From Stratiformator vulcanicus (GTDB lineage Bacteria > Planctomycetota > Planctomycetia > Planctomycetales > Planctomycetaceae): DNA of 64,000 nt. The stretch is taken from contig NZ_CP036268.1 in assembly GCF_007744515.1 (NCBI RefSeq), forward strand, positions 1,651,712 through 1,715,711, given 5' to 3'. Shown here one piece after another: positions 2,116 through 36,797 of this stretch. A program made the position numbers and the translations under genes. The first letter of the stretch is position 1; every line of letters starts with the position of its first letter. Under the pieces are notes generated by a model. That model searched no databases, was not told where the DNA came from, and worked only from the letters and a program-made list of their open reading frames with translations.

Positions 2116-4355
2116 GCCAATTGCGCGGCGGCCCGACCTTATTGCCTCCGAACTCCGGTGAGTCGAGTTCGGAGGCGTTTCCGCTGCGCTGTCGGACCGA
2201 TCTGCAATACCGCGAAGTGGTCGGATATGCCGATTCCTTTGTCGTAGTGAAAGACCCGGTGGGCCTGAAGTACTTTCGCCTGCGTCCCGATCAGGTCACG
2301 CTGCTCCGATCGCTCGACGGTCGCTCTACGCTCGAAGATGTTCGCCGCAACGTGATGCTTGCGCATCCGAATGTCTATTTGACGCCTAAGGAGGTCCAAC
2401 AGGCCGTTGCCGATTTGCACGAGAAGGGATTGCTTCGCAGCGACCGTTCCGGGCTGGCCCCCGCGCAACGCCGCAAATCAGATGAGCAAAAGCGACAGAA
2501 GCTGTTCGGATCGCTGTTGAGCGTTCTGTTTTTGCGTCTGCCGGGATGGTATCCGGACCGTATGCTTCGAAGCCTGCTTCCATTTTGCGGATGGTTGTTT
2601 CATCCGGTCGTGGTGACGTTGTGCGTGCTGTTTGTCGTGGGGTCGTGGGGCTTTGCTCTGGTGAACTTCGACGACGTCCGGCGCCAACTGCCGACGTTCG
2701 GTCAATTTTTCGGGCCCCGGAATCTGCTCTACCTTTGGGCGACGATCGCCATCACGAAATTTCTGCACGAGATGGGGCACGGGCTGACGTGCCGACGTTT
2801 CGGAGCCGAGTGTCATGAGATGGGCGTGATGCTCTTAATTTTCAGCCCGACGCTTTACTGCGATGTCAGCGATTCGTGGATGCTGCCCAGCCGGGCGAAG
2901 CGCATGATGATTGCCGCGGCGGGAATGTATGTGGAATTAATCCTCAGCGGCATTGGCCTTCTCGTATGGTGGTCGACCGACAGCGGGACGTTGCATTTCC
3001 TAGCGCTAAATCTGTTTCTGACGACCGCCGTTTCGACAGTGATCTTCAACGCCAATCCGCTCATGCGGCTCGACGGCTACTACATCCTCAGCGACTTTCT
3101 CGGAATTCCGAACTTAGGATCGCGGGCCAATGAGCGGTTGCGGAAATCGACCCTGTGGTTGTGCCTCGGGATCGAGAATCGCGAGCCGACCCATGAAGAC
3201 GAGAACGGTAAAGGCTGGTTGCTCACATATGCCGTGCTCGCGCTGGCGTATCGGTTTGTGCTGGCCTTCGGGATTTTGATCATGCTGCGGCAGTGGTTGT
3301 TACCGCAGCGTCTCGATGACTTGGTCACGCTACTGATGTGTTTTGTGGTGTTTTCGTTTCTCGCCAAGCCGATTATGCAGGGGTGGAAAATGTGGAAGAA
3401 TCGAGGCCTGACGGAAATGAAGTGGTCTCGGCTGATCGGTTCGGCGGTCGTGCTGACGGGGCTCGGACTGGCGGCCGTGTTCGTGCCGATTCCCTGGTAC
3501 GCCGAAGCCCCGATCGTGGCCGAACCTTACGACGTGCGGCACGTGAGAACCGTCGTCGGTGGTCGGCTGCTCGCCGTTCATGCCAGACCCGGAGATTCGG
3601 TCGAGCAGGGAGCGGTGATCGCCGAGTTGGAGAACACGGAGTTGCAGGATCGGCTCGACCAAGTTGAAGCCGACATTGCGGTGCAAAAAGCGCAGATACG
3701 AGTCGCCCAATACACCGGCGACGTCGTCGAAAAGGCACTCTCGCGAGACCATTTTGCCGCCCTGACTGAGCAGCAAACGCAACTGAAAGCGATGATCGCT
3801 CTGCTGACGATCAGGGCCCCGGTCTCGGGCACCGTTATCGCGGGGCCGGTTCGAAAGGAGCCGACTCCGGCGGCGCAGCAAGAAGGTCAGCCGGTGACCT
3901 GGAGTGGCCGTCCCACCGATCGCAATAACGCGGGTGCGTTTTTGGAGTCGGCGACGCATCTGGTCAGCATCGCCCCGTCCGACGGCACGCAGGTGCTGCT
4001 GCACTTCGATCAGGCCGAGCTGGAAGACGTGCATCTCGGCGAGGAGGTCACATTGCGATTCGAATCGATACCCGATCGGCTTTACAACGGCCGGGTTGAG
4101 TCGGTCGGAGCCGAAGGGCAGGTCTATATCGAGCCGGCTCTCGCGACGAAGTACGGCGGCGTTTTGGCGACCGAAGTCGATGAGCAGGGACGCGAACGCC
4201 TCGCCGAGCCGGTCTATGTGGGACGTGTTCGACTCGACGATGCGGACGCTTCGATCGTTCCCGGCACCCGCGGGCAGGCCCTCTTCACCCGATCGCAACG
4301 GCCGGTCGCTCGCTGGGCGTGGCGCGCATTCCGACGGGTCTTCTCGATGATTTGA
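2112..4355 (+). CDS. PqqD-M50 metallopeptidase-HlyD fusion
   Basis: A 747-residue membrane protein with three parts. Residues ~30-125 look like a PqqD-type winged-helix peptide-binding domain. Residues ~140-460 are a multi-pass site-2-protease (M50) core with the zinc motif H219-E220-M-G-H223 and the second motif NANPLMRLDGYY, whose D321 is the expected third ligand. Residues ~470-747 are a HlyD lipoyl/hairpin/barrel region (VGGRLLAVHARPGDSVEQG; LTIRAPVSGTVIAG). M50-HlyD proteins of this kind occur beside adaptor genes in planctomycetes and are thought to process or export peptides, but I know of no experimental function. No radical SAM enzyme or precursor peptide lies nearby inside the window. 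The GTG start overlaps the previous stop. Confidence 0.85.
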   Translation: MSQLRGGPTLLPPNSGESSSEAFPLRCRTDLQYREVVGYADSFVVVKDPVGLKYFRLRPDQVTLLRSLDGRSTLEDVRRNVMLAHPNVYLTPKEVQQAVADLHEKGLLRSDRSGLAPAQRRKSDEQKRQKLFGSLLSVLFLRLPGWYPDRMLRSLLPFCGWLFHPVVVTLCVLFVVGSWGFALVNFDDVRRQLPTFGQFFGPRNLLYLWATIAITKFLHEMGHGLTCRRFGAECHEMGVMLLIFSPTLYCDVSDSWMLPSRAKRMMIAAAGMYVELILSGIGLLVWWSTDSGTLHFLALNLFLTTAVSTVIFNANPLMRLDGYYILSDFLGIPNLGSRANERLRKSTLWLCLGIENREPTHEDENGKGWLLTYAVLALAYRFVLAFGILIMLRQWLLPQRLDDLVTLLMCFVVFSFLAKPIMQGWKMWKNRGLTEMKWSRLIGSAVVLTGLGLAAVFVPIPWYAEAPIVAEPYDVRHVRTVVGGRLLAVHARPGDSVEQGAVIAELENTELQDRLDQVEADIAVQKAQIRVAQYTGDVVEKALSRDHFAALTEQQTQLKAMIALLTIRAPVSGTVIAGPVRKEPTPAAQQEGQPVTWSGRPTDRNNAGAFLESATHLVSIAPSDGTQVLLHFDQAELEDVHLGEEVTLRFESIPDRLYNGRVESVGAEGQVYIEPALATKYGGVLATEVDEQGRERLAEPVYVGRVRLDDADASIVPGTRGQALFTRSQRPVARWAWRAFRRVFSMI

Positions 4356-18790: not shown

Positions 18791-20179
18791 TCACGCAACG
18801 GGGTGCGGGCTGGGAGGGACAGATCGTTCCGGGAGGGACTTGGCGAACCGACGCTCCAAATCGGCAACGAGTGCGGGATCGAGTACGTGTTCGATCCGAT
18901 CTGCTGCCCGATCGACTTTCGCAGGGTCGGCATCGGCAATTTCGAGCAGGTAGATTTCCCAGAGTCGATGATTCCGCGTGAGTCGTTGCGCTTCCTGTAA
19001 TCCCGATGACGTCAGCAAAATGTGTTGGCCGTCGGGTGAGCGGAGGTATCCCTTCGCCGAGCAGTCTTTCACAACCGACCTTAATCGTCCGTCGTTCCAA
19101 TCACGCTGATATTTCAATCGGGAGACTTCGACTTGCGAGAGTGCGTCCCCCCCAACACCAAAATTTGCACGGCCATCCGCTTCCATGATCTCGAAGCACC
19201 CCCGCAGCAGATGGTCCCGCGCGACCGACCGGGCGAGGCGGTGTTGCTGCCACAGTCGCGGCAAGAAACCACGCCGACTGCCGAAAATTAAACTGATGAA
19301 AAATACGGCGGACGCCGCCAGCACGATGAGTGCTCCCGCCGCGAGTCGCGGAAACAAGGCACTTAGCACCACACCGACTCCGGCACCGAGTCCGCCGAAG
19401 ACTCCGGCGAGGATCGTCATTCGCCCCACCTGATCAGTCCAGAACCGGGCTGCCGATGCGGGGATGACCAGTGCCGCCACGACCAAAATAAGGCCGACGC
19501 TTTGAATGCCGATGACCGTCACCCCGACGACCAGAGTCATTAAAATGACATCAATAATTACGATCGAATGCCCGAGCGAACCGAGAAAGCTGGGATCGAA
19601 GCAAAGCAGCACAAGTTCTTTGTGCATGAGGAGGCAAATTAATAGTACAATGCCCGCGGCCGCACCGAACGTCCATACTTCGGAAGAGAGCATCGAGGCG
19701 GTCTTGCCGAACAGGAGACTATTTAACCCGGCGGCCTGACCTCCCGGTACTTGCTGGACGATGCTGAACAGCACTGCGCCGAGCCCGAAAAAGACCCCCA
19801 GCACCACCGCCATGGCCGCGTCATCTTTGACGCGAGAGTAGCGGGTGATTGCCGTCACGCAGAGTCCTCCCACAGTTCCTGAGACGGCTGCCCCAGTCAA
19901 TAAGATTGGTGAACTGCGGCCGGTCCCGGGGGCGATTAGTTCGGCAATCAAATAGGCTGCCGCGATGCCCGGCAGGGCGGCATGTCCGATCACGTCCCCG
20001 ACGAGAGCCCGTTTTCTTAATACTAAGAAGACACCGACGACGCCGGCGGCGATACCAAGAAGCATCGTCCCTGTTAGCACGACTCGGGTGTTATAGTCCT
20101 GCAGCAGAACGAGCCGCTGGAGCCGTTCGGAGAAATCGGCCACCGCGAACAGGCCGGTCATATAACATGAGCCGGTCAC
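18791..20179 (-). CDS. Metal ABC permease fused to DtxR/MntR-type repressor domain
   Basis: Residues 1-~310 are an ABC-3 metal permease (LRKRALVGDVIGHAALPGIAAA). Residues ~322-462 resemble the MntR/DtxR repressor: a degenerate winged helix (SRLKYQRDW..LRSVVKDCSAKGYL..ILLTSSGLQEA), then the dimerisation and metal helices with H404 (NHRLWEIYL) and D427-R-I-E430-H431, matching the MntR E-G-I-E-H-H ligand region. This fusion is known from chlamydial YtgCR, whose repressor half is released by cleavage. Here the GTG start at 20179 overlaps the ATPase stop by 4 bases; an ATG at 20161 is an alternative. The domain fusion is seen directly; cleavage and autoregulation are inferred. Confidence 0.88.
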   Translation of the reverse strand: MTGSCYMTGLFAVADFSERLQRLVLLQDYNTRVVLTGTMLLGIAAGVVGVFLVLRKRALVGDVIGHAALPGIAAAYLIAELIAPGTGRSSPILLTGAAVSGTVGGLCVTAITRYSRVKDDAAMAVVLGVFFGLGAVLFSIVQQVPGGQAAGLNSLLFGKTASMLSSEVWTFGAAAGIVLLICLLMHKELVLLCFDPSFLGSLGHSIVIIDVILMTLVVGVTVIGIQSVGLILVVAALVIPASAARFWTDQVGRMTILAGVFGGLGAGVGVVLSALFPRLAAGALIVLAASAVFFISLIFGSRRGFLPRLWQQHRLARSVARDHLLRGCFEIMEADGRANFGVGGDALSQVEVSRLKYQRDWNDGRLRSVVKDCSAKGYLRSPDGQHILLTSSGLQEAQRLTRNHRLWEIYLLEIADADPAKVDRAADRIEHVLDPALVADLERRFAKSLPERSVPPSPHPVA

Positions 20180-20991
20180 GGTTGTCCTCCGGCATTGAAC
20201 ATTTTGTTGCCGGCTTCGTCCAATAACGCCAACCGGCCGCCATAGGTGCGGCGGAGGTTTTCGACATTAAAGACTTCCGCGATACTACCGGCCGCGACCA
20301 ATCGCATATTGAGCAGCAATGCGGCGTCGAAGTAATTCGTCACCGTATCAAGATCATGATGCACGACGAGTGCCGACTTGCCGCGGGATCGCAGGTCGCG
20401 AAGCAACTCGACGATCGCCGATTCGGTCGCCGCGTCGACGCCGGCGAATGGCTCGTCCATTAAATAGAAATCAGCGTCCTGAACTAAGGCGCGGGCCAGA
20501 AAAACTCGCTGCTGCTGGCCGCCGGAAAGCTGCGAGATTTGCCGATCAGCCAGATCGCTTAATCCCACCTGTTCCAATGCTTCAGCAGCACGGTTGCGAT
20601 GTCGTTTTAAGATCGGGCGGAGCCAGCCGATTTCGCCGTAGAGGCCCATCGTCACGACTTGCAGCGCTGTCACCGGGAAATCCCAATCGACCGCCGTGCG
20701 TTGCGGCACGTAAGCGACCCGACGCCGGACGGAATTTAATTGTTGTCCCCAGAATTGTGCCGCTCCGCTACTTGGTGTGACGAGATCGAGCGCGGCTTTA
20801 ATCAGTGTGCTTTTGCCGGCACCGTTCGGGCCGATCACCGCCGTTAGCGTTGAGGGGCGTAATTCGAATGAAACGTCCCACACGACCGGCTTGCTGCGAT
20901 AGGCCACCGTCATTTCTCGCACCGTCAGCGGTGCCGCAGTGGCGTGCGATTTGACGGCGCGGGACGATTCGGACAATACGGCAGCGGTCAT
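20176..20991 (-). CDS. Metal ABC transporter ATPase (YtgB/MntB type)
   Basis: A 271-residue ATP-binding subunit. Walker A is GPNGAGKST, the signature is LSGGQQQRV, Walker B is FYLMDEPFAG and the H-loop is LVVHHDLDT. The subclass matches Mn/Zn/Fe importers (PQRTAVDWDFPVTALQVVTMG). Both ends overlap neighbours by 4 bases, which suggests translational coupling with the binding protein and the permease-repressor. Confidence 0.94.
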   Translation of the reverse strand: MTAAVLSESSRAVKSHATAAPLTVREMTVAYRSKPVVWDVSFELRPSTLTAVIGPNGAGKSTLIKAALDLVTPSSGAAQFWGQQLNSVRRRVAYVPQRTAVDWDFPVTALQVVTMGLYGEIGWLRPILKRHRNRAAEALEQVGLSDLADRQISQLSGGQQQRVFLARALVQDADFYLMDEPFAGVDAATESAIVELLRDLRSRGKSALVVHHDLDTVTNYFDAALLLNMRLVAAGSIAEVFNVENLRRTYGGRLALLDEAGNKMFNAGGQP

Positions 20992-21998
20992 TTAGACTCC
21001 GGCAAAATGGTCAGCTTGCCGACGCGCCCGTCAACGGGAGCGGTGCCGCCGAGCGCCCGCGTGATGACCGTCGCGTTATGGTCCAACATCCCAAGATAGG
21101 TACCTTCATAGGTACCGGTCGGCCCCATGGCATCGGAAAAGAGATCGGTTCCGATCGCCACCTGTTTGCCGCGATCAGCCGCACCTTCGACCATCGCGCG
21201 GACGGTTTGCGGAGAAATTGTCGTCTCGACGAAAACCGCCGGAATCTCGTTTTCAACGATGAAGTCGACCAGGCGATTAATATCGGCTACTCCCGCTTCG
21301 GCTTCGGTCGTGATGCCCTGAACGGCTTTCACTTCAATCCCGTACCGCCGCCCGAAATAGGCGAACGCATCGTGGGCCGTGACCAGTTGCCGCTGCGGTT
21401 CCGGAATCGAATTGATCGATTGTTCAATGTATTCGTCCAACACCGACATTTGGGAGAGATATTTCTCAGCGGCTTGTTCGTACTCCCCGCTGTGGTCGGG
21501 ATCGTGGTTTGAAAGCGTCTCGACCACGACGGCGATCGCCTGACGCCACAATTTCGGCGACATCCACACGTGCGGGTCGGTCGCCGAATGTGAACCGGCT
21601 TCTTCCGAGCGAATCAGTTCGGAATCGTCAATTCCGTTCGTCACGGCTCGGACCGGCTTCCCGTCGCTCGCGATCGACTCGAGAACCGTCTCCATCTGCC
21701 CTTCCAGCCCGAGGCCGTTGTAGAACACGACGTCGGCGTCGTTGAGCGCGACCACGTCGCTTCGCAGCGGCTTGAAGAGGTGCGGATCGACATCCTCTTT
21801 CATCAATCCGATCACGCGGACGTCAGGCCCGGCGATTTGCCGGACGACGTCGGTGATCATGCCGGTCGTAGTCACGATGGTGAATCGCGGCTCGTTCACC
21901 TCGGTGAACGTCCCTGATCGGGGCCGATCGTCGGTGTCGCAACCGCTACCGAGGGTGATCGTGACTGCAGCGAAAACCGCGAAGGCTATTTGTTTCAT
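20988..21998 (-). CDS. Mn/Fe-type metal-binding lipoprotein (YtgA/TroA family)
   Basis: A 336-residue cluster A-I solute-binding protein with a lipoprotein signal (ITLGSGC lipobox), so it is membrane-anchored in the periplasm. Likely metal ligands in order are His (EDVDPHLFKP), His (TDPHVWMSP), Glu (PAVFVETTIS) and Asp (IGTDLFSDAMG). A His-His-Glu-Asp set is the Mn/Fe pattern of PsaA-type proteins, and the His-rich loop of ZnuA zinc binders is absent. It is the first gene of the operon and is transcribed away from the zinc-ribbon gene at 22187. Confidence 0.92.
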   Translation of the reverse strand: MKQIAFAVFAAVTITLGSGCDTDDRPRSGTFTEVNEPRFTIVTTTGMITDVVRQIAGPDVRVIGLMKEDVDPHLFKPLRSDVVALNDADVVFYNGLGLEGQMETVLESIASDGKPVRAVTNGIDDSELIRSEEAGSHSATDPHVWMSPKLWRQAIAVVVETLSNHDPDHSGEYEQAAEKYLSQMSVLDEYIEQSINSIPEPQRQLVTAHDAFAYFGRRYGIEVKAVQGITTEAEAGVADINRLVDFIVENEIPAVFVETTISPQTVRAMVEGAADRGKQVAIGTDLFSDAMGPTGTYEGTYLGMLDHNATVITRALGGTAPVDGRVGKLTILPESK

Positions 21999-24128: not shown

Positions 24129-24800
24129 ATGTGTGGCCGAATCAATTTGCGGACGAGCAATCAAGACCTTTCAAAGCTCTTCACCGAATTCGAGCAACTT
24201 CAATTTCCTGATATCGAACCGCGATATAACATCGCGCCATCGCAGCCGGTGCTGGCCGTGCGGGAGATCGGGCAAACCCTATCGGCCGACTTTCTGAAAT
24301 GGGGGTTCCGGCCTCCGTGGTGGAAGCCGAAGCAACCGCAACCGATTAACGCCAAAGCGGAGTCGATTGAATCGGGGCGGTACTGGACCGGCAGCTTTCG
24401 ACATCATCGCTGCCTGATTCCCGTCAGCGGTTTCTATGAATGGAAGGCGAGCGAAGACGGGAAGCAGCCGTTCCAAATCGGACTTGAGTCGGGTGAGCCG
24501 TTTTGTCTCGGGGGGCTGTGGAATCGCTGGGAAGCCGAAGACGGTTCATCCTCGGAAACTTTTGCCGTCATCACCGTCCCGCCGAACGATTTGATGAAGT
24601 CGATTCACAACCGGATGCCGCTGATTATCGGGAAGGGTGACTTCGGCATGTGGCTTGCCGAGGAATCGGACGGGAACGAGCTGTCGGGATTGCTCAAGCC
24701 ATACGAGAGTGATGCATTAACAGCTTACGCGGTTTCGACGGTCGTAAATAATCCTCGGAACGATAGCCGCGAATGTATTGAGCCGGTCGCGTCAAATTAG
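24129..24800 (+). CDS. SRAP-domain protein (YedK/HMCES family)
   Basis: A 223-residue SOS-response-associated peptidase-like protein that covalently traps abasic sites in single-stranded DNA through Cys2. The protein begins M-C-G-R, and removal of Met exposes the catalytic cysteine, which fixes the start at 24129. Other active-site elements are RYNIAPSQP, INAKAES, FYEW (Glu) and HNRMPLI (His). It stands alone, about 115 bases after the zinc-ribbon gene. Confidence 0.95.
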   Translation: MCGRINLRTSNQDLSKLFTEFEQLQFPDIEPRYNIAPSQPVLAVREIGQTLSADFLKWGFRPPWWKPKQPQPINAKAESIESGRYWTGSFRHHRCLIPVSGFYEWKASEDGKQPFQIGLESGEPFCLGGLWNRWEAEDGSSSETFAVITVPPNDLMKSIHNRMPLIIGKGDFGMWLAEESDGNELSGLLKPYESDALTAYAVSTVVNNPRNDSRECIEPVASN

Positions 24801-24961
24801 ATTAGATTTGGCGTACGAACGGTAGTTTCAATACGAGCCCGCGGCACAGAACGATGGTCGATCAATCTGTGATTCTCCCGGCGGCTTGCGCCTCGGGCTT
24901 GTATGTCAGACGGTTTGAAATCACTCTTAGAGCGGTGTGTTCGACCCAACCCGTTTTTAAA

Positions 24962-26638
24962 CTACGTGGTCGATTCACCGACGGGTTCCACCAGCGAGCG
25001 AATGGACATTCCGCCGGTCAAATTGCGAACGTCCTGAAAGCCGAGGCCGCAGAGCAGCATTGCTCCGACGTGAGCCCGCTTCGCCGAGTGACAGACGACG
25101 ACGGTCGGACGCTTCGGGTCAATTTCGTTGGCCCGTTCTCGCAACTCATCGATCGGGATATGAACGGCTCCCTTAAGTGGAAGTGTTTCGATTTCTGAAG
25201 CGGTGCGGACATCGACAACCTGATAGCCGTCCAACACGGTGCCGGGTGGCAACAGCGGCGGGCGTGCATCCAGGTCGTTGGCGGCGACAAACGCGGCCAT
25301 GTGAACGGGGTCTTTTGCGCTACCAAACGGTGGGGCGTAGGCGAGGTCGAGCCCGGCGAGATCTTCGACCGTCGCCCCGAAGTGCATTGCCGTGGCGATC
25401 ACGTCGATCCTCTTGTCGACGCCCTCACCGCCGACGCATTGTGCGCCGAGGATTCGGCCGAAGCCTTCTTCATAAATCAACTTCAGCACCAGCGGCTCCG
25501 CCCCGGGGAAGTAGCCCGCGTGATTGGTCGCTCGGATGATGGCCGAGCGGACGCGTTTGTGTTCGCGTTTCGCCATCGTTTCTGAGATTCCGGTCAGGGC
25601 GACCGTCTTTTCGAAGACGCGAACAACGGCTGTGCCCATTACCGATGCCATGGCCGACGATCTTCCGGTCGCGGCATGTTCGCCCGCGATGCGACCGGCT
25701 CGATTCGCCGGGCCGGCCAGTGGAACGCGGGCCGGCCGATGGAGTACGCCGTGCTCGTACTCCACGGCGTCGCCGACGGCGTAAATATTCGGGTCGGACG
25801 TTTGCATCGACTCATTGACTCTGATTCCCCTGGCCTCTCCAATTTCAAGCCCGGCATCAGCGGCAAGTTTGGTCCTCGGGCGAACGCCGATCGAGAGGAT
25901 GAACAGGTCGGCCTCCAGATTTGTTTCATCATCCAGCACCGCCGCGGAGGCGATGCCGTCATTGCTCCTCAGGCCCGCAATCCCGTTGCCCGTATGGAGG
26001 TCGACCTCGTGATCCCGCAGTTCTCGCTCGACGATTCGGGCCATCTCAACGTCAAGCGGCGGCAGCACGTGCGGAGACTTTTCAACGAGCGACACGTCGA
26101 GTCCGCGCCGTTGCAATTGCTCGACGACTTCCAAACCAACGAAGCCAGCACCGACGACCACGGCCCGTTTTGGTGCGGCCTTCCCGAGCCGCGACAGGAT
26201 CGCGTCCATGTCAGGCATCGTCCAAAGATTGAAGACGTTCTTGAATGTCCCTTTGGCAAAGGGGGGGACGATCGGCTCCGCGCCGGGCGAAAGGATTAAG
26301 CGATCGTATGGCTCGTTCGATTCACCGTGTGGGCCTCGGACCTTAATCGATCGATTTTCGCGATCGATCGAAAGCACTTCGTGTTCGACCCGGACATCGA
26401 TGTTGAAGCGTTGCTGAAATAACTCCGGCGTTGCAACGAGCAATTTGTCGCGGTCTTCGATTTCGCCCCCCACGTGATAGGGCAGCCCACAATTGGCGAA
26501 CGAGACGTAAGGGCCTTTCTCAAAGATCACGATTTCGGCCGACTCGTTACATCGACGGGCGCGAGTTGCGGCGCTCGCCCCTCCGGCCACTCCGCCGACG
26601 ATTAGAATTCGTGGTGCATTCGCGTTTCGTCCCGCCAT
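24962..26638 (-). CDS. CoA-disulfide reductase-like flavoprotein with C-terminal rhodanese
   Basis: A 558-residue FAD/NAD(P)H oxidoreductase. It has a dinucleotide-binding N-terminus (ILIVGGVAGGASAATRARR), the redox cysteine in YVSFANCGLPYH, a second Rossmann fold (RAVVVGAGFVGLEVVEQL), the dimerisation domain and a C-terminal rhodanese domain with active-site Cys in VVCHSAKRAH. CoADR-rhodanese fusions reduce CoA disulfide or CoA persulfide and polysulfide. The ATG at 26638 has GGAG upstream; a TTG at 26704 would overlap the upstream gene. It is the distal gene of an ArsR-rhodanese-CoADR operon, which argues for persulfide or sulfide handling. Confidence 0.92.
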   Translation of the reverse strand: MAGRNANAPRILIVGGVAGGASAATRARRCNESAEIVIFEKGPYVSFANCGLPYHVGGEIEDRDKLLVATPELFQQRFNIDVRVEHEVLSIDRENRSIKVRGPHGESNEPYDRLILSPGAEPIVPPFAKGTFKNVFNLWTMPDMDAILSRLGKAAPKRAVVVGAGFVGLEVVEQLQRRGLDVSLVEKSPHVLPPLDVEMARIVERELRDHEVDLHTGNGIAGLRSNDGIASAAVLDDETNLEADLFILSIGVRPRTKLAADAGLEIGEARGIRVNESMQTSDPNIYAVGDAVEYEHGVLHRPARVPLAGPANRAGRIAGEHAATGRSSAMASVMGTAVVRVFEKTVALTGISETMAKREHKRVRSAIIRATNHAGYFPGAEPLVLKLIYEEGFGRILGAQCVGGEGVDKRIDVIATAMHFGATVEDLAGLDLAYAPPFGSAKDPVHMAAFVAANDLDARPPLLPPGTVLDGYQVVDVRTASEIETLPLKGAVHIPIDELRERANEIDPKRPTVVVCHSAKRAHVGAMLLCGLGFQDVRNLTGGMSIRSLVEPVGESTT

Positions 26639-26681
26639 CGGTCTTCGTCTCCGGCTTTCCGATTTCTTAATGACTTCGGTA

Positions 26682-27266
26682 TTAAGTTTCCGCGGGCTGA
26701 TCAACCGGTGAATTGTCGATCGAATCTTCCGACGCGTTGGCCGAGACCTGATTCCACGGCATCTTCGAGATCAGCATCCCCATACCGCAGGTGTCAGTGA
26801 TACCAGCGAATACGAGCCCAGCTCCTACGAACGCACTCAATCCCACAAAGTAGGGGTGAACGGCTAAGGCGAGGACGGCTCCCAAAACGACGAGGCTGCC
26901 TGCGGCGATCCGGACCTGCCGTTCGAGTGACATTGTCTTTTGGCCGCGAACAACCGGCAGGTCGGCCGATTCCCACGCGAGAGTCCCGCCCTCGACGTTG
27001 ACGGCATTGTCAAAGCCAGATGAAGCCATTGCTTCGCACGCCTTGCTGCCGCGGCTACCGGAGCGGCAAATGAAATAAAGCGGCTGATCTTCGGAGTGCT
27101 CGCCGGTGAGATCCTCCGGTTTAAGGCCGTCGAGCGGGACGTTACGGGCCATGGTCGCATGGACCTCGCGGTATTCGGCCGGCGTACGAACGTCGATCAA
27201 TTCGATCGACGGATCGTTTTTCGCGCGGTCGTGGAGTTCCTGCGGGCTAATGGATGAAACGGACAT
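26682..27266 (-). CDS. Rhodanese domain fused to DUF2892 membrane domain
   Basis: A 194-residue protein. Residues ~5-105 are a rhodanese sulfurtransferase domain with active-site loop CRSGSRG (Cys near residue 67). Residues ~115-170 have two membrane helices of the DUF2892 type (IAAGSLVVLGAVLALAV, GLSAFVGAGLVFAGITDTCGMGML). It should bring a persulfide-carrying rhodanese to the membrane. It lies between the ArsR regulator and the CoADR-rhodanese gene on the same strand. Confidence 0.92.
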   Translation of the reverse strand: MSVSSISPQELHDRAKNDPSIELIDVRTPAEYREVHATMARNVPLDGLKPEDLTGEHSEDQPLYFICRSGSRGSKACEAMASSGFDNAVNVEGGTLAWESADLPVVRGQKTMSLERQVRIAAGSLVVLGAVLALAVHPYFVGLSAFVGAGLVFAGITDTCGMGMLISKMPWNQVSANASEDSIDNSPVDQPAET

Positions 27267-27380
27267 TCGCTCTCCCTTTCAAAAAGAATTTTTCTCTCGC
27301 TTCGAATGTGGACAGATCGCAACAATTCGACATATTTTCGCGTCACTTCCTCGGCTTCAGTCCGCGCGGTTGAAGCTTGA

Positions 27381-27701
27381 TCAACCGAATCGGCCCTCGA
27401 TGCAGGCCATTAAATCAGCCAAGTGTGGTTCGGCCACTTCGTAATAGGTCTTCCGACCGTCCCGCTCGCTTTTGAGCAGCCCACTCCGCTGCATCAATCG
27501 CAGGTGTTCCGATGCCATGTGACTCGGGATTTCGCAGGCGGCGGCGAGTTCGCCGACCGTGTACCGACCTCGCAGCAGCATTTGAATGACTCGTAGCCGA
27601 TGCGGATGCGCGACGGTCTTGAGACACTCAGCGGCTTGCTTGAGCGTGTCGAGATCGAGCAGGGACTCACTGGTGCGGGTTCGATTGGTCTGTGAATGCA
27701 T
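27381..27701 (-). CDS. ArsR/SmtB-family regulator, likely sulfur- or redox-sensing
   Basis: A 106-residue winged-helix repressor (TVAHPHRLRVIQMLL, then VGELAAACEIPSHMASEHLRLMQRSGLL). Three cysteines are present: one in the first helix (AECLKTV), one in the recognition region (AAACEIP) and one in the last helix (LMACIEG). Persulfide sensors of the SqrR/BigR type use a pair of cysteines, but the first does not align exactly here, so sensing is inferred mainly from the downstream rhodanese genes. The ATG at 27701 is used; a TTG at 27710 is possible. A 20-bp palindrome lies just upstream. Confidence 0.88.
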   Translation of the reverse strand: MHSQTNRTRTSESLLDLDTLKQAAECLKTVAHPHRLRVIQMLLRGRYTVGELAAACEIPSHMASEHLRLMQRSGLLKSERDGRKTYYEVAEPHLADLMACIEGRFG

Positions 27702-27712
27702 AATACTCAATT

Positions 27713-27732
27713 ATATCGTGATGTCACGATAT
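27713..27732. promoter_or_regulatory. Palindromic operator of the ArsR-type regulator
   Basis: ATATCGTGATGTCACGATAT is a perfect 9-2-9 inverted repeat 11 bases upstream of the regulator's ATG. Size, symmetry and position fit an ArsR-family binding site and suggest that the regulator controls its own operon. Confidence 0.7.
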
Positions 27733-27992
27733 GTCAACATCAGGGGGCGGCTGTCGTTGTTTGCTGGACTCGGGCAATAACGGCGCTACATTTATGGCTA
27801 TTGTTTGACAGTCCGTCGGTGACCCGATTAGACAGGAAGCGATAATTCGCCACAGTTCAGCCCGTATGTTGCGAAACCGGGCGGAATGCGTCCCAATAAC
27901 GAGCGGTCTGGAATCGGGCCGCCGAGTTCGACTGTTCGGTAGGCGTTTCGATCGACGTCGCTCACAGGTTCCCCGCTAAGAAAGCTTCGCCC

Positions 27993-28955
27993 ATGCCCCG
28001 CCCCACAGCTCCCCGCGGATTTACGCTCATCGAACTATTGGTTGTGATTGCGATCATCGCCATCCTGATCGCGCTGCTGCTGCCCGCCGTGCAGCAAGCC
28101 CGCGAGGCGGCTCGGCGGACGCAATGCAAAAATAACGTCAAACAACTCGGGCTCGCGCTGCACAATTACGAAAGTGCTCACGGCGTCTTTCCACCGAGCA
28201 GCACCAGCGATATCGGCGACGGCGTGTGGCGCTATCCGACGGCAACCGGACCGACCGATCCTTCGATTCACCTGCATAGCTGGGCGAGCCTGCTGCTGCC
28301 GTATCTTGAGGCAGCCAATCTTTACAACAGCGTGAACTACGAGATTTCCGCGCTTGATCCGGCCAATCAGGACGTCGCCTCGCAGGTGCTTCCGTTCTAT
28401 CGGTGCCCGAGTTTTTCGGGTGGTGACTTCACCAATGAAACGCTCTACACCTCGGTCGTCGGATTCGATCAATTTGCGATTCGGAACTACGCGGGCATGG
28501 GGGCAGTGACTGTCGCCAGTCTCGGGTCTGCCGGTACCGCTGAGGGGGTCTTGTTTCCGGCCAGTAACACGAAATTTCGCGACATCACCGACGGTACTTC
28601 GAACACGGTCGTGATTGCGGAGACCCGCGACCAGAACGGTTCTGTCTGGATCGACGGCTCGACCGCCACGCTCACAGCGAGGTTCGCGGACGTGTCCGGA
28701 ACGAATCCCTTCCTCGGTGGATTGACGACCGCGATCAACCACAATCCGTTCTTCCCGCAGAGCGGAGCGCAAAATCCCGGCAACGCACTCATGATTCCCA
28801 TCGAGCAAGAATGGGGCCCGTCCAGCTTTCACGTCGGCGGAGCACACCACCTGCTGTGCGACGGTTCGGTCCACTTCCTGAGCGAAAACCTCGACATCGT
28901 CGTGTACGACAATTTGGTCAACAAATCAGACGGCCAGGTCGTCGGAGAGTTTTAG
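27993..28955 (+). CDS. DUF1559 prepilin-type N-terminal domain protein
   Basis: A 320-residue pseudopilin-like protein typical of planctomycetes. After a short basic leader comes the type IV prepilin cleavage/methylation motif (RGFTLIELLVVIAI) and one long hydrophobic helix, followed by PAVQQAREAARRTQC. The body is the DUF1559 domain with the C-terminal signature of small residues, His and DGSV (CDGSVHFLSENLD). Such proteins occur in tens to hundreds of copies per planctomycete genome; their role is unsettled. No pilus assembly genes are nearby. Confidence 0.96.
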   Translation: MPRPTAPRGFTLIELLVVIAIIAILIALLLPAVQQAREAARRTQCKNNVKQLGLALHNYESAHGVFPPSSTSDIGDGVWRYPTATGPTDPSIHLHSWASLLLPYLEAANLYNSVNYEISALDPANQDVASQVLPFYRCPSFSGGDFTNETLYTSVVGFDQFAIRNYAGMGAVTVASLGSAGTAEGVLFPASNTKFRDITDGTSNTVVIAETRDQNGSVWIDGSTATLTARFADVSGTNPFLGGLTTAINHNPFFPQSGAQNPGNALMIPIEQEWGPSSFHVGGAHHLLCDGSVHFLSENLDIVVYDNLVNKSDGQVVGEF

Positions 28956-29124: not shown

Positions 29125-29367
29125 ATGAGGAGCCAGATTTTTCCTGACGACGCATCAGCCGCGGAGTTGGCGGATGCGATGGAACCGATCGAGTTCGTCG
29201 ACGCGGAAGGCAACGTCCTCGGGCTGTTTCGCTCGGAGAAACTGTTGAAGGCGTTGGAGTACGCGGAAGAGCGGCACCGCACTCGTCCGCTTGCCACCGG
29301 AGACTACGATGGTCGCGGTAAGACAACTGCGGAAGTGCTCGATGACCTGCGGAAAAAGTTCCCGTGA
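29125..29367 (+). CDS. Putative antitoxin of a ParE/RelE-like pair
   Basis: An 80-residue acidic protein ending in TTAEVLDDLRKKFP, a helix typical of toxin-wrapping antitoxin tails. The middle (FVDAEGNVLGLF) resembles small antitoxins seen before RelE/ParE toxins in planctomycetes and cyanobacteria. Its stop overlaps the next GTG start by 4 bases. The assignment rests on that coupling and on size and charge. Confidence 0.65.
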   Translation: MRSQIFPDDASAAELADAMEPIEFVDAEGNVLGLFRSEKLLKALEYAEERHRTRPLATGDYDGRGKTTAEVLDDLRKKFP

Positions 29368-29621
29368 AGTGGCAGGTCACGTGGACCGCACCGGCCCAAC
29401 GCGAGTTGGCCGAGATTTGGTCAGCCGCGAGAGATCGCCAGAGGCTGACCGAAGCGGTCGACCGCTTCGATCGATCTGCAGAGCAAGATCCGCGAGTCGA
29501 TACGGATCGCTACGGAAACCAAGAACGGATCGCGTTCGCCGGGCCACTCGCAATCGTATTCCGGATTATTGATGAAGAATCCGCCGTTCACGTAATCGAT
29601 GTCTTTCGCTACCCCGGTTGA
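29364..29621 (+). CDS. ParE/RelE-superfamily toxin-like protein
   Basis: An 85-residue basic protein starting KWQVTWTAPAQRELAEIW, the usual ParE/RelE beginning, and ending VFRIIDEESAVHVIDVFRYPG, a typical beta hairpin with terminal R and G. It could inhibit translation or gyrase; the sequence does not separate the two. The GTG start at 29364 overlaps the antitoxin stop (GTGA). Confidence 0.75.
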   Translation: MKWQVTWTAPAQRELAEIWSAARDRQRLTEAVDRFDRSAEQDPRVDTDRYGNQERIAFAGPLAIVFRIIDEESAVHVIDVFRYPG

Positions 29622-29690: not shown

Positions 29691-32600
29691 ATGCCCGCCT
29701 CCGACATCATTATTCGCGGTGCTCGCGAACATAATCTGCAGAACGTTGACCTCCGGCTGCCGAAGGATCAGCTCATCGTGATGACGGGCGTGAGCGGCTC
29801 GGGGAAGAGTTCGCTCGCGTTCGACACGCTCTACGCCGAGGGGCAGCGGCGGTACGTCGAGTCCCTCTCCAGCTACGCCCGGCAGTTCCTCGGCCAGATG
29901 CCCAAGCCCGATGTCGACTCGATCAGCGGGCTGGCGCCGTCGATCTCGATCGAGCAGAAAACGGCCGGTCGCAATCCTCGCAGCACCGTCGGCACGATCA
30001 CCGAGATTTACGACTATCTCCGCGTGCTGTTTGCCCGGGTGGGGCAGGGCTACTGCTACGTGTCGGGACTGCCGATCCGTGCTCAGACGACCGAACAGAT
30101 CGTCGATGCGATCGCCGCGCTCGAAGACGGCACGAAGTATCAAATTCTCTCCCCTCTGATTCAAAACCAAAAGGGCGAATTCCGCGATCTGTTCGAGGAC
30201 CTGCTCAAGCAGGGCTATCTCCGCGCCCGCATCGACGGAGAGTTTTATGAACTCACCAACCCGCCGAAGCTCCGCAAGCACTACAAGCACAACATCGAAT
30301 TGGTCATCGACCGGCTCGTCGCGGGCAAAGCAAACCGCTCCCGCCTAACCGAAGCCGTCGAGTCGGCCCTCCGCATGGGCGAACGGCGCCTCATTCTCGT
30401 CACTGAGGGCGGGCAGAGCCGGGGGAAGGGGCGAGACGAGAAAAAGAAGGGCGAAGCCCACGGGTCGCACCCCGTGGGTCCCGAAAAACTTTACAGCGCC
30501 GACTACAGTTGCCCCGAGAGCGGGATGAGCTACGAGCCGCCGTCGCCGCAACTTTTCAGCTTCAACAGTCCATTGGGGATGTGCCACGACTGCAACGGCC
30601 TCGGCCGGCGGTCCGACTTCGTGCTCGACCTGCTGATTCCCGACCCGAAGAAGTCGGTCAGCCGCGGCGCGATCGAATTGCTCGGTTCATTCGGCAAGAT
30701 CGGCAAATGGCGGAAGCACCTCTACAAGGGCGCGGCTGAAGCGATCGAAGAAGACCTCGGGATGAAGGGCGGCACGCTCCTCAAGACGCCGTGGAACAAG
30801 CTCTCGGAGGAAGCCCGAGATCGCTTCCTCAATGGCACCGGCGACCGGCACGTCACCTACACGTGGCGGGGCTGGAAGCACGGCGGCACATGGGACGGCG
30901 TGATTTCGGAACTCGCCGAGAGCTATCGGTCGTCGAGCAACCCGATGCGCCGCCGACAGCTCGAAAAGTTCATGGAGTGGACGACGTGCTCCTCGTGCGA
31001 GGGCGGGCGCCTCAGTCGCCAGGCCCGCAACGTTCGCATCAAATCAAATAGCGAATCATTCCAAGCCCACGGGTTGCAACCCGTGGGCTTGGAACTCTCG
31101 CTCCCCCAAGTCTGCGCCCTTTCGATCGAAGATATCTATGACTTCTTCGAGTCACTCGAACTCGACGAGACCCGTCAACACATCGCGGAGGAAGTGCTGA
31201 AGGAAATCCGCGGTCGACTCAGCTTCCTGCTGCGGTGCGGATTGCATTACCTCACGCTCGACCGTCCCGCCCCGACGCTCTCCGGTGGGGAGTCGCAGCG
31301 GATTCGCCTCGCGGGACAGATCGGCTGCGGACTCGTGGGGGTCGTCTACATCCTCGACGAACCGTCGATCGGCCTGCACCCGCGCGACAACGCAATGCTG
31401 CTGGAGAGTCTCGAAGACCTCCGCGATCAGGGCAATACGGTCATCGTGGTCGAGCACGACGAGGAGACGATGCGGGCAGCCGACCGTGTGATCGACTTCG
31501 GCCCCGGCCCCGGCATCCGCGGCGGCGAGATCGTGGTCGACGGCACCGTCGAAGACGTGTTGAAGAACAAGAAAAGCCTGACCGGGGCGTATCTGAGCGG
31601 CCGGAAGGTGATCGAGGTCCCGAGTGAACGGCGAAAAGTCGGAGGCGCGAGCGGGAAAGCGAAGAGCGGAAAGCGGAAAGCCGGCAAGCGCAAGGACGAC
31701 GCACCGACGCCCGCTCGCCCCGACGCCCGCTCCCTCCGCATCACCGGCGCGACTCACAACAACCTCAAGGCCATCGAAGCAGAGTTCCCGCTCGGAACGT
31801 TCATGTGTGTCACGGGCGTCAGCGGCTCGGGGAAGAGTTCGCTCGTCAACGACATTCTATGGCAGGTGCTCAATCGGGACGTGAACGGCGGCAACGGCGA
31901 TCCCGGACCGCACGATGTGTTCGAAGGCATCGATCTGCTCGACAAGGCGATCGACATCGATCAGTCGCCGATCGGCCGGACACCTCGCTCCAACCCCGCG
32001 ACCTACACGAAACTCTTCGACGAGATTCGTGCGCTCTACACGAAGGTGCCGGAGGCGAAGGTCCGGGGTTACGGGCCGGGGCGGTTCAGCTTCAATGTCC
32101 CCGGGGGGCGCTGCGAGGCGTGTGAGGGATACGGCGCGACGAAGCTCGAGATGGATTTCCTCGCTGATATCTGGGTGCAGTGTCCGGTCTGCGAGGGGCG
32201 ACGCTTCAACCGCGAAACGTTGGAGATCGAGTTCAAAGGCAAGAGCATCGCCGACGTTCTCGCCATGGACGTGCAGGAGGCGCTGACTCACTTCGAGCAC
32301 GTGCCGAAGGTCAATCGCTTCCTCAAGACGCTGCACGACGTCGGGCTCGATTACATCAAGCTGGGGCAGCCGTCGCCGACGCTGTCTGGGGGCGAAGCCC
32401 AGCGGATCAAGCTCTCGCGTGAACTCGGCAAGCGAACGACCGGTAAGACGTTTTACGTGCTCGATGAACCGACGACCGGGCTGCACTTCGCCGACGTTCA
32501 CAAACTGCTCGACGTGCTGCACAGCCTCGTCGATCAGGGCAACACGGTGCTCGTGGTCGAGCACAACCTCGATGTCATCAAGACCGCCGACTGGGTGATC

Positions 32601-35600
32601 GACCTTGGCCCCGAAGGGGGCGCCGGCGGCGGACGGATCGTCGCGACCGGTACGCCGGAAGAGATCGCGGTGTGTGAGGAGTCGTTCACCGGACGGGCGT
32701 TGCGGTCGGTGTTGGACATCGGTGCGTTGGGGCGAGAAGGCGAGAAGGCGAAGGAGAACGGCGCGTCCGCTCTCGCGTCTCCCCGGAATCGTTGGCAGAT
32801 TGCGCCTTCAACGAACGGCGATTCGACGAAGGAGATCACCATCCGCGGGGCCCGGCAGCACAATCTGCAGGACCTCGACGTGACGATCCCGCGGAATCGG
32901 ATGAGCGTCTTCAGCGGGCCGAGCGGCAGCGGCAAGAGCTCGCTCGCGATGGACACGCTCTATGCCGAGGGGCAGCGGCGGTACGTCGAATCGCTGTCAG
33001 CGTACGCCCGGCAGTTCCTCGGCCAGATGCCGAAGCCGAAGGTCGAACACGTCCACGGCCTCTCCCCGGCGATCGCGATCGAGCAGAAGACCGTCGGCAG
33101 CACACCCCGCAGCACCGTCGGCACAGTCACGGAAATCTACGACTATCTCCGCATTCTCTTCGCTCGCCTCGGCACGCCGTTTTGTCCCGATTGTGAGATC
33201 CCCGTTGGGCAGAGCACGACGGATGAGATCGTCGAGCGGGTGATCGGGTTAGAAAAAGCGGAAAACGGAAAGCGGAAAGCGGATGAGACGAGCGGAATGC
33301 GTGCATTGCTCATGGCGCCGCTTGTCATCCACAAGGGCGAGTCGTTCGAGCGATTGTGGGAGAAACTCAAAGCGGACGGGTATCAGCGGGTCCGAATCGA
33401 CGGGGAGACGTATTCGATTGACGAAGTCCCGGACATCTCGCACCGGGGCGATCACAGGGTGGAAGTGGTCGTTGACCGGGTGACGATCGACGCGAAGAAC
33501 CGCAGCCGGATCGCGGACAGTATTGAGTCGGCGTTGTCGGTCGGCCGGGGCGTGCTGCGGGTCGCGATTGCCGACACTGAGATCGCCGAGCCTGACTGGC
33601 AGGTGCGGCGGTTCAGCCAGCACTTCGCCTGTCCACAGTGCGATCGCAGCTTCGAGCATCTGACGCCGCAGAACTTCTCGTTCAACAGCCCTCTCGGTTG
33701 GTGCGATGCCTGCGAAGGCCTTGGCGTCGAGACGGGAACCGATCGCTCGGTGCTCGTGGCGAATGAGAATCTGTCGCTACGCGAGGGGGCAATCACCGCA
33801 TGGCCGAAGCCGGCGGAGAACCCGCTGTTCGCGCGGATGCTGGAGGCGATGGCGAAGACCTTCGGCCTCGATCTCGACGCACCGTTCTATCGTCTCGACC
33901 CGCGGAAGCAGCGCGTGGTCTTCTACGGGTCCGATCGCGAGGTCACCGTCCCCGCGACGAAGTCGGAGCCGGCCTTCGGGTTCACCTACAAGGGTCTATA
34001 CCCGGCGATGAACGAAGCCTCGCGGCTGTCGTATCACTACCGGCAGAAGATGCGCGACATGGTCGGCGAGATGCCCTGCTCGGCATGCGACGGCGACCGG
34101 GTCCGCGACGATGCCGCCGCATTTCGCTTCCGCGACGTCACGCTGCCGCAACTTTGCAAGCTTCCGATGGGGGAGGCGTTCGAGTGGCTCCAGAACGTCA
34201 AGCTGAAGAAGGCGGAGAAGGGGGTCGCGGGAGACCTGTTGGACGAAGCGACGAGTCGGCTGCGGTTCCTGGTCGACGTCGGGCTCGAATACCTTGCAAT
34301 GGACCGCACGATGCCGTCGCTCTCAGGCGGGGAAAGCCAGCGCATCCGCCTCGCAGGGCAGATCGGGCGGTCGCTGACGGGTGTGCTGTACGTCCTCGAC
34401 GAACCGACGATCGGTCTGCACCCGCGCGACAACGGTCGATTGATCGGAGCGCTCGCGAAGCTGCGCGACCTCGGCAATACGGTGGTGCTCGTCGAGCATG
34501 ACCGCGAAGTCATCGAAGCGTCGGACCGCATTTACGACTTCGGCCCCGGTGCCGGACGCCTTGGCGGGCAGGTCACGGCGGAGGGGACTCCCAAGCAGGT
34601 CGCGCGGAAGAAGTCATCGCTAACCGGGCGATATCTGGCCGATCGAGCCTCGATCCCGGTGCCTACGGTGAGGCGAGTGGGCGTCGGTGGGAGTGGGCGT
34701 GAGCACGCGAAAGAAGTTCGCACAGACGCACCGACGCACCGACACCCCCTCCCCGAGCACGATGCCGGTTGGCTCGAATTGACGGGTTGCAACCACCACA
34801 ACCTGCGCGGCGTCGATCTGCGAGTTCCGCTCGCGACGCTCACGTGCATCACGGGCGTCTCCGGGTCGGGGAAGAGTTCGCTGATCGAGGGCACGCTCGC
34901 GCCGGCGGTCGCGCGGCGACTCAACATGGCGGGGGACACGCCGGGGCCGTTCGGTCAGCTGCGTGGCGTCGAAAAGATCGGCAAGATCATCGCCGTCGAT
35001 CAGCAACCGCTCGGCAACACGCCCGCATCGAACCCCGCGACCTACACCGGCGTGTTCGATCAGGTCCGCGAGCTATTCGCGCGACTGCCCGATGCCAAAG
35101 TCCGCGGCTACAAACCGGGGCGGTTCAGCTTCAATCGACCCGGGGGACGCTGCGAGGACTGCGAAGGCCTCGGCCAGAAGAAGATCGAAATGCACTTCCT
35201 GCCCGACGTGTGGGTCGAGTGCGAAACCTGCCGCGGCAAGCGCTACAACGCCGAAACTCTCGCGGTGCAATTCCGCGGACGAAGCATCTCCGACGTGCTG
35301 GAGATGCCGATCGGCGAGGCGTATGAACTGTTCGAGAACGTGCCGAAGATCCGCTCGGTGCTCGGAGTGCTGTGCGCGATCGGGCTCGATTACCTGACGC
35401 TCGGGCAGTCGGCTCCGACCCTTTCCGGCGGCGAAGCCCAACGGGTGAAACTCGCGGCGGAACTCGCGCGGCCGAACAGCGGGCGGACGCTCTATCTGCT
35501 CGATGAACCGACGACGGGGCTGCACTTTGACGACATCGCCAAGCTGCTGACAGTGCTCAACAGCCTCGTCGATCTCGGCAACACCGTGGTCGTGATCGAG

Positions 35601-36797
35601 CACAACCTCGACGTAATCAAGACCGCCGACTGGCTCGTCGACCTCGGCCCCGAAGCAGGCGTCGGCGGCGGTCGCATCGTCGCGGAGGGAACGCCGGAGG
35701 AGTTAGTCGAGAGTAAGGGAGAAGCGAGAAGGGAGAAGCGAGAAGCGGGAAGATTCGTTTCTCATACGGCGCGACTTCTTGCGCCTGTGTTGGAGTCGAG
35801 TCAGCGGGCGGAGCGGGCTTCGTTCGACATCAAGCGGGAAGCGAAGAAACGCTCAGGGGACGTCGACGTCAAACAGGTCGGCCGCGATGCCAAAATGCCC
35901 TGGCAGGTCGATGGTTTGCTCTGGCACACCGAGAAACGGCTCGCTCACAACGGGAAGCCCGCCAAATGGGAAGGCGGGGCGTTGCTGAGCGTGCTCGCGG
36001 AATTGGAGATGATGGGCGGGTTCGCCGAGCCGAACTTCAATCACAAAAGCGTCGTCGAGGTGCTTGGCCAATCGAAGCAGGGGGGCTGGTTCCTGCACGC
36101 GAAGACGGGGCAGGAATGGTTCCTGATGCTCACCTTCCGGGTGAAGAAAAATTACTTCACGGAGGCGTCGCTCGCCCGGAAAATTGATCTCCCACCCGCC
36201 GACGAATTGGAAGACCTCCCGGTCTACGGACCCGACCCGCGGTTGTGGGTGAAGAACATCCGCGGCCCGTGGCAGGAGGTCACATTCAAAGTTCACTGGC
36301 AGGAAGAGGTCGAGACGAAGGCGTTCAAGAACTTCCTGAAAGAGGCGAAGAGAGCATTTCTTGCACAGGCCGAGCAAACGAAGCTCGATCTCACGGAACT
36401 TGCACCGTGGAAAGTGCTTGGGCGGAAGTGGCATACCTCGCAGAAGGGACTCGCAAACGGCGCCAACGCCAACCAACCGGAACTGACCGACGAGTTGTGT
36501 ACGTTGATCGAAGCCTCGGGCTCCGGCCTCGACGTTGACTGGAGCGGCAAAACCAAAGTGATCTATCGCAAGGGGGGCAAGGTCGCGGCGGAACTGTTCC
36601 CGAAGCGAAAGGGAGGAGTACGGCTGCACCTGCCGGTCGAATCGGGCAGCGTGCCGCTCGGAACGGTGGCGGAACTGGGCCGCAAGCCGGAAGTTACCGC
36701 GGGCGCGAAAGGTGACGTTGTGAAGCTTCGGTTTACTTCGCGCGCTCAGGTTTCGTCGGCGAAGCTTCGCTCGTTTCTTGCGGAGCGGCTTTCTTGA
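29691..36797 (+). CDS. uvrA: Tandem-duplicated UvrA excinuclease subunit with novel C-terminal extension
   Basis: A 2,368-residue protein holding two complete UvrA copies (residues 1-~1020 and ~1045-2010). Walker A motifs lie near 33, 709, 1076 and 1722, and each ABC half keeps its LSGGE signature and Walker B. Zinc-finger 1 of copy 1 reads CPESG...CHDC and lacks one cysteine, whereas copy 2 is intact (CPQC...CDAC). UvrA normally dimerises to find bulky DNA lesions, so this looks like a covalent dimer. Linkers carry Lys/Arg/Gly-rich inserts and two palindromic inserts (at 30457-30478 and 31061-31092). Residues ~2010-2368 form an extension I do not recognise, with an internal duplication ([11 protein letters not shown] at 2070, [11 protein letters not shown] at 2239). 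It starts 69 bases after the toxin gene. Confidence 0.93.
30457..30478. repeat. Palindromic insert inside uvrA (copy 1)
   Basis: CCCACGGG/CCCGTGGG with a 6-base loop, kept in frame and translated within [12 protein letters not shown]. It belongs to the same palindrome type as the 32-bp repeat at 31061 and falls in a stretch absent from copy 2 of the same gene. Confidence 0.75.
31061..31092. repeat. Perfect 32-bp palindrome inside uvrA
   Basis: Two 16-bp arms, the left one CCAAGCCCACGGGTTG, form a perfect palindrome that is translated as roughly [11 protein letters not shown]. The core CCACGGGTT/AACCCGTGG is the same as in the shorter palindrome at 30457. It looks like an intergenic repeat that has inserted in frame. 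Confidence 0.85.

Follow-up and report, generated by a model that had tools for sequence, protein, structure and literature searches.

How would a small ArsR-type repressor govern sulfur genes when it lacks the cysteine pair of the SqrR and BigR persulfide sensors? This question is raised by a three-gene operon of the planctomycete Stratiformator vulcanicus, located on the minus strand of a 64,000-nucleotide stretch of contig NZ_CP036268.1 (positions 1,651,712 to 1,715,711, hereafter the window), where a palindromic element precedes genes for an ArsR-family regulator, a membrane rhodanese and a coenzyme A disulfide reductase (CoADR)-rhodanese flavoprotein. With a probability of about 0.62, we read this locus as an autoregulated persulfide/sulfane-sulfur response operon whose repressor would be centred on Cys100, a reading that draws on sequence and gene context. 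The elements of the operon are as follows, in coordinates of the window.

27732-27737, minus strand: -35 element TTGACA (6/6) from the promoter scan, overlapping the operator edge and kept in relatives
27713-27732, no strand assigned: operator, a 9-bp inverted repeat ATATCGTGA-TG-TCACGATAT, from the sequence and the family motif in relatives
27710-27715, minus strand: -10 element TATAAT (6/6, spacer 16) from the promoter scan, overlapping the operator edge
27381-27701, minus strand: ArsR-family repressor of 106 residues with Cys26, Cys56, Cys100 and Ser73, from helix-turn-helix (HTH) domains HTH_20/HTH_5, an AlphaFold2 model and a structural match
26682-27266, minus strand: protein of 194 residues with a rhodanese domain (CRSGSRG loop) and a YgaP-like_TM membrane domain, from domain search
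24962-26638, minus strand: CoADR-rhodanese (Npsr-type) flavoprotein of 558 residues from the ATG at 26638, with the SFANCGLPY and CHSAKRA cysteines, from domain search

Promoter, operator and genes of the operon

Coordinates and domain searches agree with the arrangement given in a preliminary description of this DNA, a palindrome upstream of an ArsR gene followed by a membrane rhodanese and a CoADR-rhodanese; the minus-strand order is promoter-operator, regulator, membrane rhodanese and CoADR-rhodanese, with gaps of 114 and 43 bp between the genes. The element ATATCGTGATGTCACGATAT at 27713-27732 had been called a perfect palindrome, which is true of its two 9-bp arms, ATATCGTGA and TCACGATAT, but not of the asymmetric 2-bp TG/CA centre between them. 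It fills the spacer of the minus-strand TTGACA/TATAAT pair, the sole 12/12 consensus promoter in 24700-28000. Because the predicted operator overlies both hexamers, a bound ArsR dimer should exclude RNA polymerase, so that a repressor sitting at 27713-27732 should block its own promoter. The start codon of the regulator is most likely the ATG at 27701, 8 nt past the -10 hexamer with no evident Shine-Dalgarno sequence, and the mRNA looks leaderless (27701-27715, minus strand), whereas in many relatives the leader is longer and a GGAG-like site is present; the alternative TTG start at 27710, given in the open reading frame (ORF) list, overlaps the -10 element. The region has three terminator-like sites, a number not above chance, and each of them is on the plus strand.

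Allowing up to 3 mismatches, 100 dinucleotide shuffles of the window yielded no match to the 20-bp element, which is single in the whole genome of 5.23 Mb at 0-2 mismatches. One further place appears at 3 (G000:C1:1877636-1877655, locus L002); it has a phoU-like gene (by eye) beside it and is probably a chance match. A search with the family motif at up to 3 mismatches likewise gives the operator as the sole site in this genome, against 0 for the reversed pattern. The genome search that had been proposed for defining the regulon thus returns a single site in front of its own operon; a wider operator-defined regulon was rejected on this ground, and the regulon visible by operator in this genome is this operon alone.

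The CoADR-rhodanese consists of a Pyr_redox_2 domain, a dimerisation domain and a C-terminal Rhodanese domain, so that FAD/NAD, dimerisation and rhodanese parts are all present, although its score against TIGR03385 (451.4 bits) is under the cut-off of 578.8. This domain order is that of the Npsr/CoADR-RHD persulfide reductases, and its SFANCGLPY and CHSAKRA cysteine motifs are presumably those of the same enzymes; the difference is that here the enzyme stands under an ArsR of this lineage and is paired with a membrane rhodanese. Npsr is reported to reduce persulfide and polysulfide (PMC7969121).

Operator and sulfur genes among relatives

Is such an operon peculiar to one genome? Matches to the regulator at E<=1e-10 are present in 111 of the 170 genomes of the host's taxonomic family (four are weak, 1e-11 to 1e-12), and with a profile of the regulator family (E<=1e-15) 79 of the 294 phylum genomes give a match. 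Named contigs contributed 411 relatives, of which the best 80 were used, and the titles of these best 80 of 411 are mostly planctomycete. Beyond Planctomycetota, operator and sulfur genes are found together on two Nitrospinota contigs (L149, L169) and one Verrucomicrobiota contig (L166), all from metagenome-assembled genomes, where binning errors are possible. The collection amounts to 221 loci including the window, with 198 unique regulator proteins; those above 125 bits form what we call the family (174) and the remaining 24 are termed distant. Across it the architecture of operator, regulator and sulfur gene is common, not special to the S. vulcanicus genome.

The element TTGACATRTCGNNANNTNNCGATATA is matched at no fewer than 15 of 20 positions upstream of 160 of the 174 family regulators, inside the promoter, as well as upstream of 13 of the 24 distant ones, and none of 990 mononucleotide shuffles reaches the operator score of 15. 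The frame shared by these sites is RTCG-N8-CGAY, with TCG and CGA cores that hardly change; since the inner bases vary among relatives, the palindrome as spelled in the window represents one variant of a constant frame. Loss of the palindrome in relatives had been named beforehand as a ground for abandoning the idea and did not occur, the frame and its placement in the promoter being conserved. Between the inner bases and residues 60-62 (SNV with TAA..TCA, TAM with GAA..TTC) there are trends only, confounded by kinship, on which we make no claim, and a free palindrome search upstream of relatives was set aside as it picked many unrelated repeats.

We then take the 149 family loci whose downstream sequence extends for 2.5 kb or more, in which rhodanese, CoADR, metallo-beta-lactamase (MBL)-rhodanese, TauE, sulfide:quinone oxidoreductase (SQR)-like and thioredoxin (Trx) genes were sought. 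A membrane rhodanese lies within 900 nt downstream in 123 of them, and at least one sought sulfur gene within 6 kb in 132; such a gene follows at 130 of 136 loci with the operator versus 2 of 13 without it, and six of the 17 loci that have no sought sulfur gene do have the operator. Given that operator, ArsR lineage and sulfur genes co-occur across the family, control of sulfane sulfur, as first suggested from the window, is well supported by context. The third gene is CoADR only in 37 loci, MBL-rhodanese only in 64 and both in 1 (Fisher P 1.7e-10, uncorrected for kinship), and TauE accompanies MBL-rhodanese in 47 of 65 loci versus CoADR in 1 of 38. This near-exclusive choice suggests one switch with two alternative outlets, reductive and oxidative, of which the window operon would carry the reductive one, with CoADR. 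A search for MBL-rhodanese in the S. vulcanicus genome gave no match, but was run without a positive control and is thus uninformative.

The operator also stands away from regulator genes. At up to 2 mismatches its pattern occurs in 94 of the 170 genomes (reversed pattern, 0), and a hand count gives 34 sites that do not lie upstream of a regulator gene. Among the 20 of these that were examined, 14 adjoin a clear sulfur gene (representatives domain-checked, others by eye) and six do not:

L286: SQR-like gene
L288, L295, L298, L299, L304: rhodanese gene
L290, L292, L293, L294: TauE and MBL-rhodanese
L296: Trx and MBL-rhodanese
L300, L302: MBL-rhodanese (the L302 gene is oriented away from the matched strand)
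L301: CoADR after a regulator remnant
L287, L289: methyltransferases, no clear sulfur gene
L291: peroxidase-like gene (by eye), then a DsrE-like gene, no clear sulfur gene
L303, L305: uncharacterised proteins, 121 bp and 138 bp after the operator, no clear sulfur gene
L297: contig end, no clear sulfur gene

The epithet "self-contained", once applied to the operon, therefore suits its own genome with one site; in relatives it fails, since further sulfur genes carry the operator too. Two details of these sites may be recorded. In L301, near position 3227 (matched orientation), a shortened regulator with most of its HTH gone lies between a full operator and the CoADR gene. The operator repeatedly precedes the gene of an uncharacterised protein that looks secreted and begins glycine-rich (L303, L305), and this protein also turns up in regulator operons; the first 230 residues of the L303 protein gave no Pfam match.

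Cysteines of the regulator and candidate signals

What, then, could the regulator sense? Its AlphaFold2 model (predicted local distance difference test score 95.5) has an ordinary ArsR winged-helix fold, and the top structural row is E. coli YgaV (3cuo; Z 16.0, root-mean-square deviation 2.1 over 95 residues), level with other ArsR chains. Gap-free structural ranges place Cys41 of SqrR on Q40 and Cys107 on G106, and a BigR profile alignment agrees. Neither position of this alpha2/alpha5 pair holds a cysteine in any family member (0/174 at 40, which is Gln, Glu or His, and 0/174 at 106), in line with the initial remark that the cysteines are unlike the SqrR/BigR pair. Near-invariant instead are Cys26 in alpha1 (172/174), Cys56 at the end of alpha3 (172/174), Cys73 just after alpha4 (166/174) and Cys100 in alpha5 (173/174), the window regulator being one of seven family members with Ser73.

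As of 2023, every known ArsR persulfide sensor had the alpha2/alpha5 pair (PMC10509353, PMC12423496; Cys31/Cys98 in YgaV, PMC9774250), while many sHdr-linked ArsR proteins are noted to be without it and may function in another way (PMC12423496). Against the BigR equivalog NF040642 the window regulator scores 49.2 bits, below the cut-off of 155, a strict one that was passed in 0 of 14 control genomes (E. coli included) and 0 of 195 phylum genomes. None of the ten best BigR-model matches from these 195 genomes has the alpha2 cysteine, and it is suggested that the phylum has no canonical sensors of this kind. In a FastTree tree of 49 sequences, SqrR, BigR and HlyU group together (0.88) apart from the window lineage, although short sequences and midpoint rooting make this weak. 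Kinship with TsoR was considered and dropped (NCBIfam 40.9 bits versus a cut-off of 115; no paper on TsoR found).

We read 47 mostly distant loci (27 of an earlier set and 20 new), of which 18 are followed by rhodanese, CoADR, MBL-rhodanese or TauE; Cys100 is present in 18 of 18, five of them being of the four-cysteine type like the family. Conversely, the mostly distant loci without Cys100 (L240, which is the same place as L369; L248; L254; L370) have none of those sulfur genes, as is also true of many of the 47 loci with Cys100, and position 100 of L249 is Ile or Cys depending on the alignment. Within the family, operator and sulfur gene are both absent from the two Arg26 members (L134, L135). 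Beside CoADR in L236 and L245, Cys100 is the single cysteine in the stretch read, while other distant homologues have more. A set of distant homologues with Cys100, often together with His73/His104 (L236, L238, L239, L241, L245, L247, L361, L364, L367, L368), has CoADR, YeeE-type sulfur transporters (PF04143, two copies scanned) and polysulfide-reductase-like genes (by eye) as neighbours; for this set, metal or single-thiol sensing is possible.

The place of Cys100 in the helix leads to the first rival. E91, H93, Cys100 and R104 align with SmtB 104, 106, 113 and 117, of which we take 104, 106 and 117 to be alpha5 metal-ligand positions and 113 to lie on the same helix face as 106 and 117', close to the dimer axis. 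The alignment suggests that Cys100 may meet Cys100' or Cys26' across the dimer interface. The same residues could instead make a metal-loaded or metal-sensing repressor with a mixed S/N/O site in alpha5, built from E91, H93, Cys100 and either Cys26 or Cys56; a thiophilic metal would then be the signal, with the sulfur genes answering metal/thiol stress. This would fit the retention of E91 (169/174) and H93 (165/174) on the positions of SmtB D104/H106 (whose ligand identity we assume), the combination of H93/H104 with Cys100 in some distant members, e.g. L236, L239 and L241, and a best NCBIfam model that is a generic metalloregulator subfamily. A complete ArsR/SmtB alpha5 site consists of D-x-H plus the His and acidic ligand of the partner, however, and here its second half is lost, position 104 being Arg in 167/174; the alpha3 CXC motif was not found in the window regulator either, residues 49-56 reading VGELAAAC. 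With sulfur genes in 132 of 149 neighbourhoods, although no search was aimed at metal-transport genes, we consider metal sensing unlikely.

Three conserved cysteines in an ArsR also bring to mind an As(III)/Sb(III) sensor with a Cys26/Cys56/Cys100 site; some As(III) sites of ArsR proteins are assembled from different helices. Yet no arsenic gene was recognised by eye among the recurrent neighbours of 101 loci (no search was aimed at arsenic or metal genes), and two CoADR-linked distant homologues show Cys100 only, which makes this option very improbable. A peroxide or general thiol-redox sensor, in which oxidants form a disulfide and the sulfur genes are induced for thiol repair, would make use of several conserved cysteines, and RexT, of ArsR cluster 6, is reported to sense H2O2 and to be located near NADH oxidoreductase genes (PMC10509353), a class to which CoADR belongs. 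RexT is like the window regulator a thiol-based ArsR without a known metal site, but it uses two proximal alpha3 cysteines (PMC10509353), where only Cys56 is present here, and its gene context differs: the operator genes of the present lineage are MBL-rhodanese, sulfite exporter, SQR-like and rhodanese genes with no peroxidases save the peroxidase-like gene of L291 (by eye). We hold peroxide sensing to be improbable.

Several observations weigh against a persulfide response centred on Cys100. L048, the sole family member without Cys100 (Asn100), keeps a good operator and a downstream rhodanese, so that, barring a sequencing error, Cys100 is not indispensable in every case. A CoADR or rhodanese gene is still present beside the Ser56 members (L074, L133), and some Ser73 members likewise have sulfur genes, while the near-invariant Cys56 and Cys73 play no part in the mechanism proposed below and a pure thiol sensor does not need the retained E91 and H93. 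Furthermore, homologues share descent so that the counts are not independent, and co-transcription of the three genes, judged from their spacing alone, is likely.

A proposed switch and its relation to known sulfur sensors

In the persulfide response that we favour, a reduced ArsR dimer on RTCG-N8-CGAY would block RNA polymerase until low-molecular-weight persulfides or polysulfide rise and Cys100 in alpha5 becomes persulfidated. The modified cysteine would then form a bridge with Cys26 or with the other protomer's Cys100', upon which the dimer would leave the DNA and the operon would be expressed. Its membrane rhodanese may accept sulfane sulfur, which the CoADR-rhodanese would reduce with NADH, via CoA, to H2S. 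In many relatives the switch would serve an oxidative outlet made up of a persulfide dioxygenase-like MBL-rhodanese and a sulfite exporter of the TauE type.

A close counterpart is E. coli ygaVP, where the gene after an ArsR repressor likewise encodes a rhodanese bearing a YgaP-type membrane domain; autoregulation, predicted from the operator in the window, is described for ygaVP (PMC9774250). Unlike it, the window regulator lacks Cys31/Cys98 of YgaV (PMC9774250), the half-site differs and a CoADR-rhodanese is added. With the reactive sulfur species sensors SqrR, BigR, SoxR, sHdrR and HlyU, cluster 4 of the ArsR sequence similarity network, the lineage has in common the fold and the genomic link to rhodaneses, sulfurtransferases and sulfur transporters noted in PMC10509353 (here 132/149). 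The cluster 4 operator is ATTC-N8-GAAT (PMC9774250), with the same 4-N8-4 spacing but other half-sites, and the alpha2/alpha5 cysteine pair is replaced here by Q40 and G106. The working would thus resemble that of SqrR and YgaV while the defining cysteines are absent, which makes the regulator a putative variant of known ArsR sulfur sensors. No paper on a planctomycete ArsR-rhodanese or this ArsR lineage was recognised by title or abstract start, in a search that left subscription literature mostly uncovered. A bolder version, a second and separately built ArsR sulfane-sulfur switch in which the Cys100 residues of the two protomers capture sulfur at the dimer two-fold axis (an inter-protomer di-/polysulfide or a Cys100-Cys26' bridge) and not an intraprotomer alpha2/alpha5 pair, is put forward as a doubtful but conceivable extension. 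Under this version the switch might serve many Planctomycetota as their chief sulfur regulator, none of the ten best BigR-model matches in the phylum having the alpha2 cysteine.

Elsewhere in the window, a 2368-residue open frame at 29691-36797 (plus strand) appears by eye as two UvrA-like halves in tandem, 18791-21998 (minus strand) holds by eye an ABC metal-transport set (binding protein, ATPase, and permease with an extra C-terminal regulator-like tail), and two overlapping small ORFs at 29125-29621 (plus strand) look by eye like an antitoxin/RelE-type pair.

If the persulfide reading is true, the small ArsR fold can accommodate persulfide-sensing chemistry at more than one place, and caution would be due against finding ArsR sulfur sensors by the alpha2/alpha5 pair alone. 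This widespread ArsR lineage would also offer a testable sulfur regulon for Planctomycetota, and the near-exclusive choice behind one switch between a reducing outlet (CoADR) and an oxidising one (MBL-rhodanese with sulfite export) would be testable as well.

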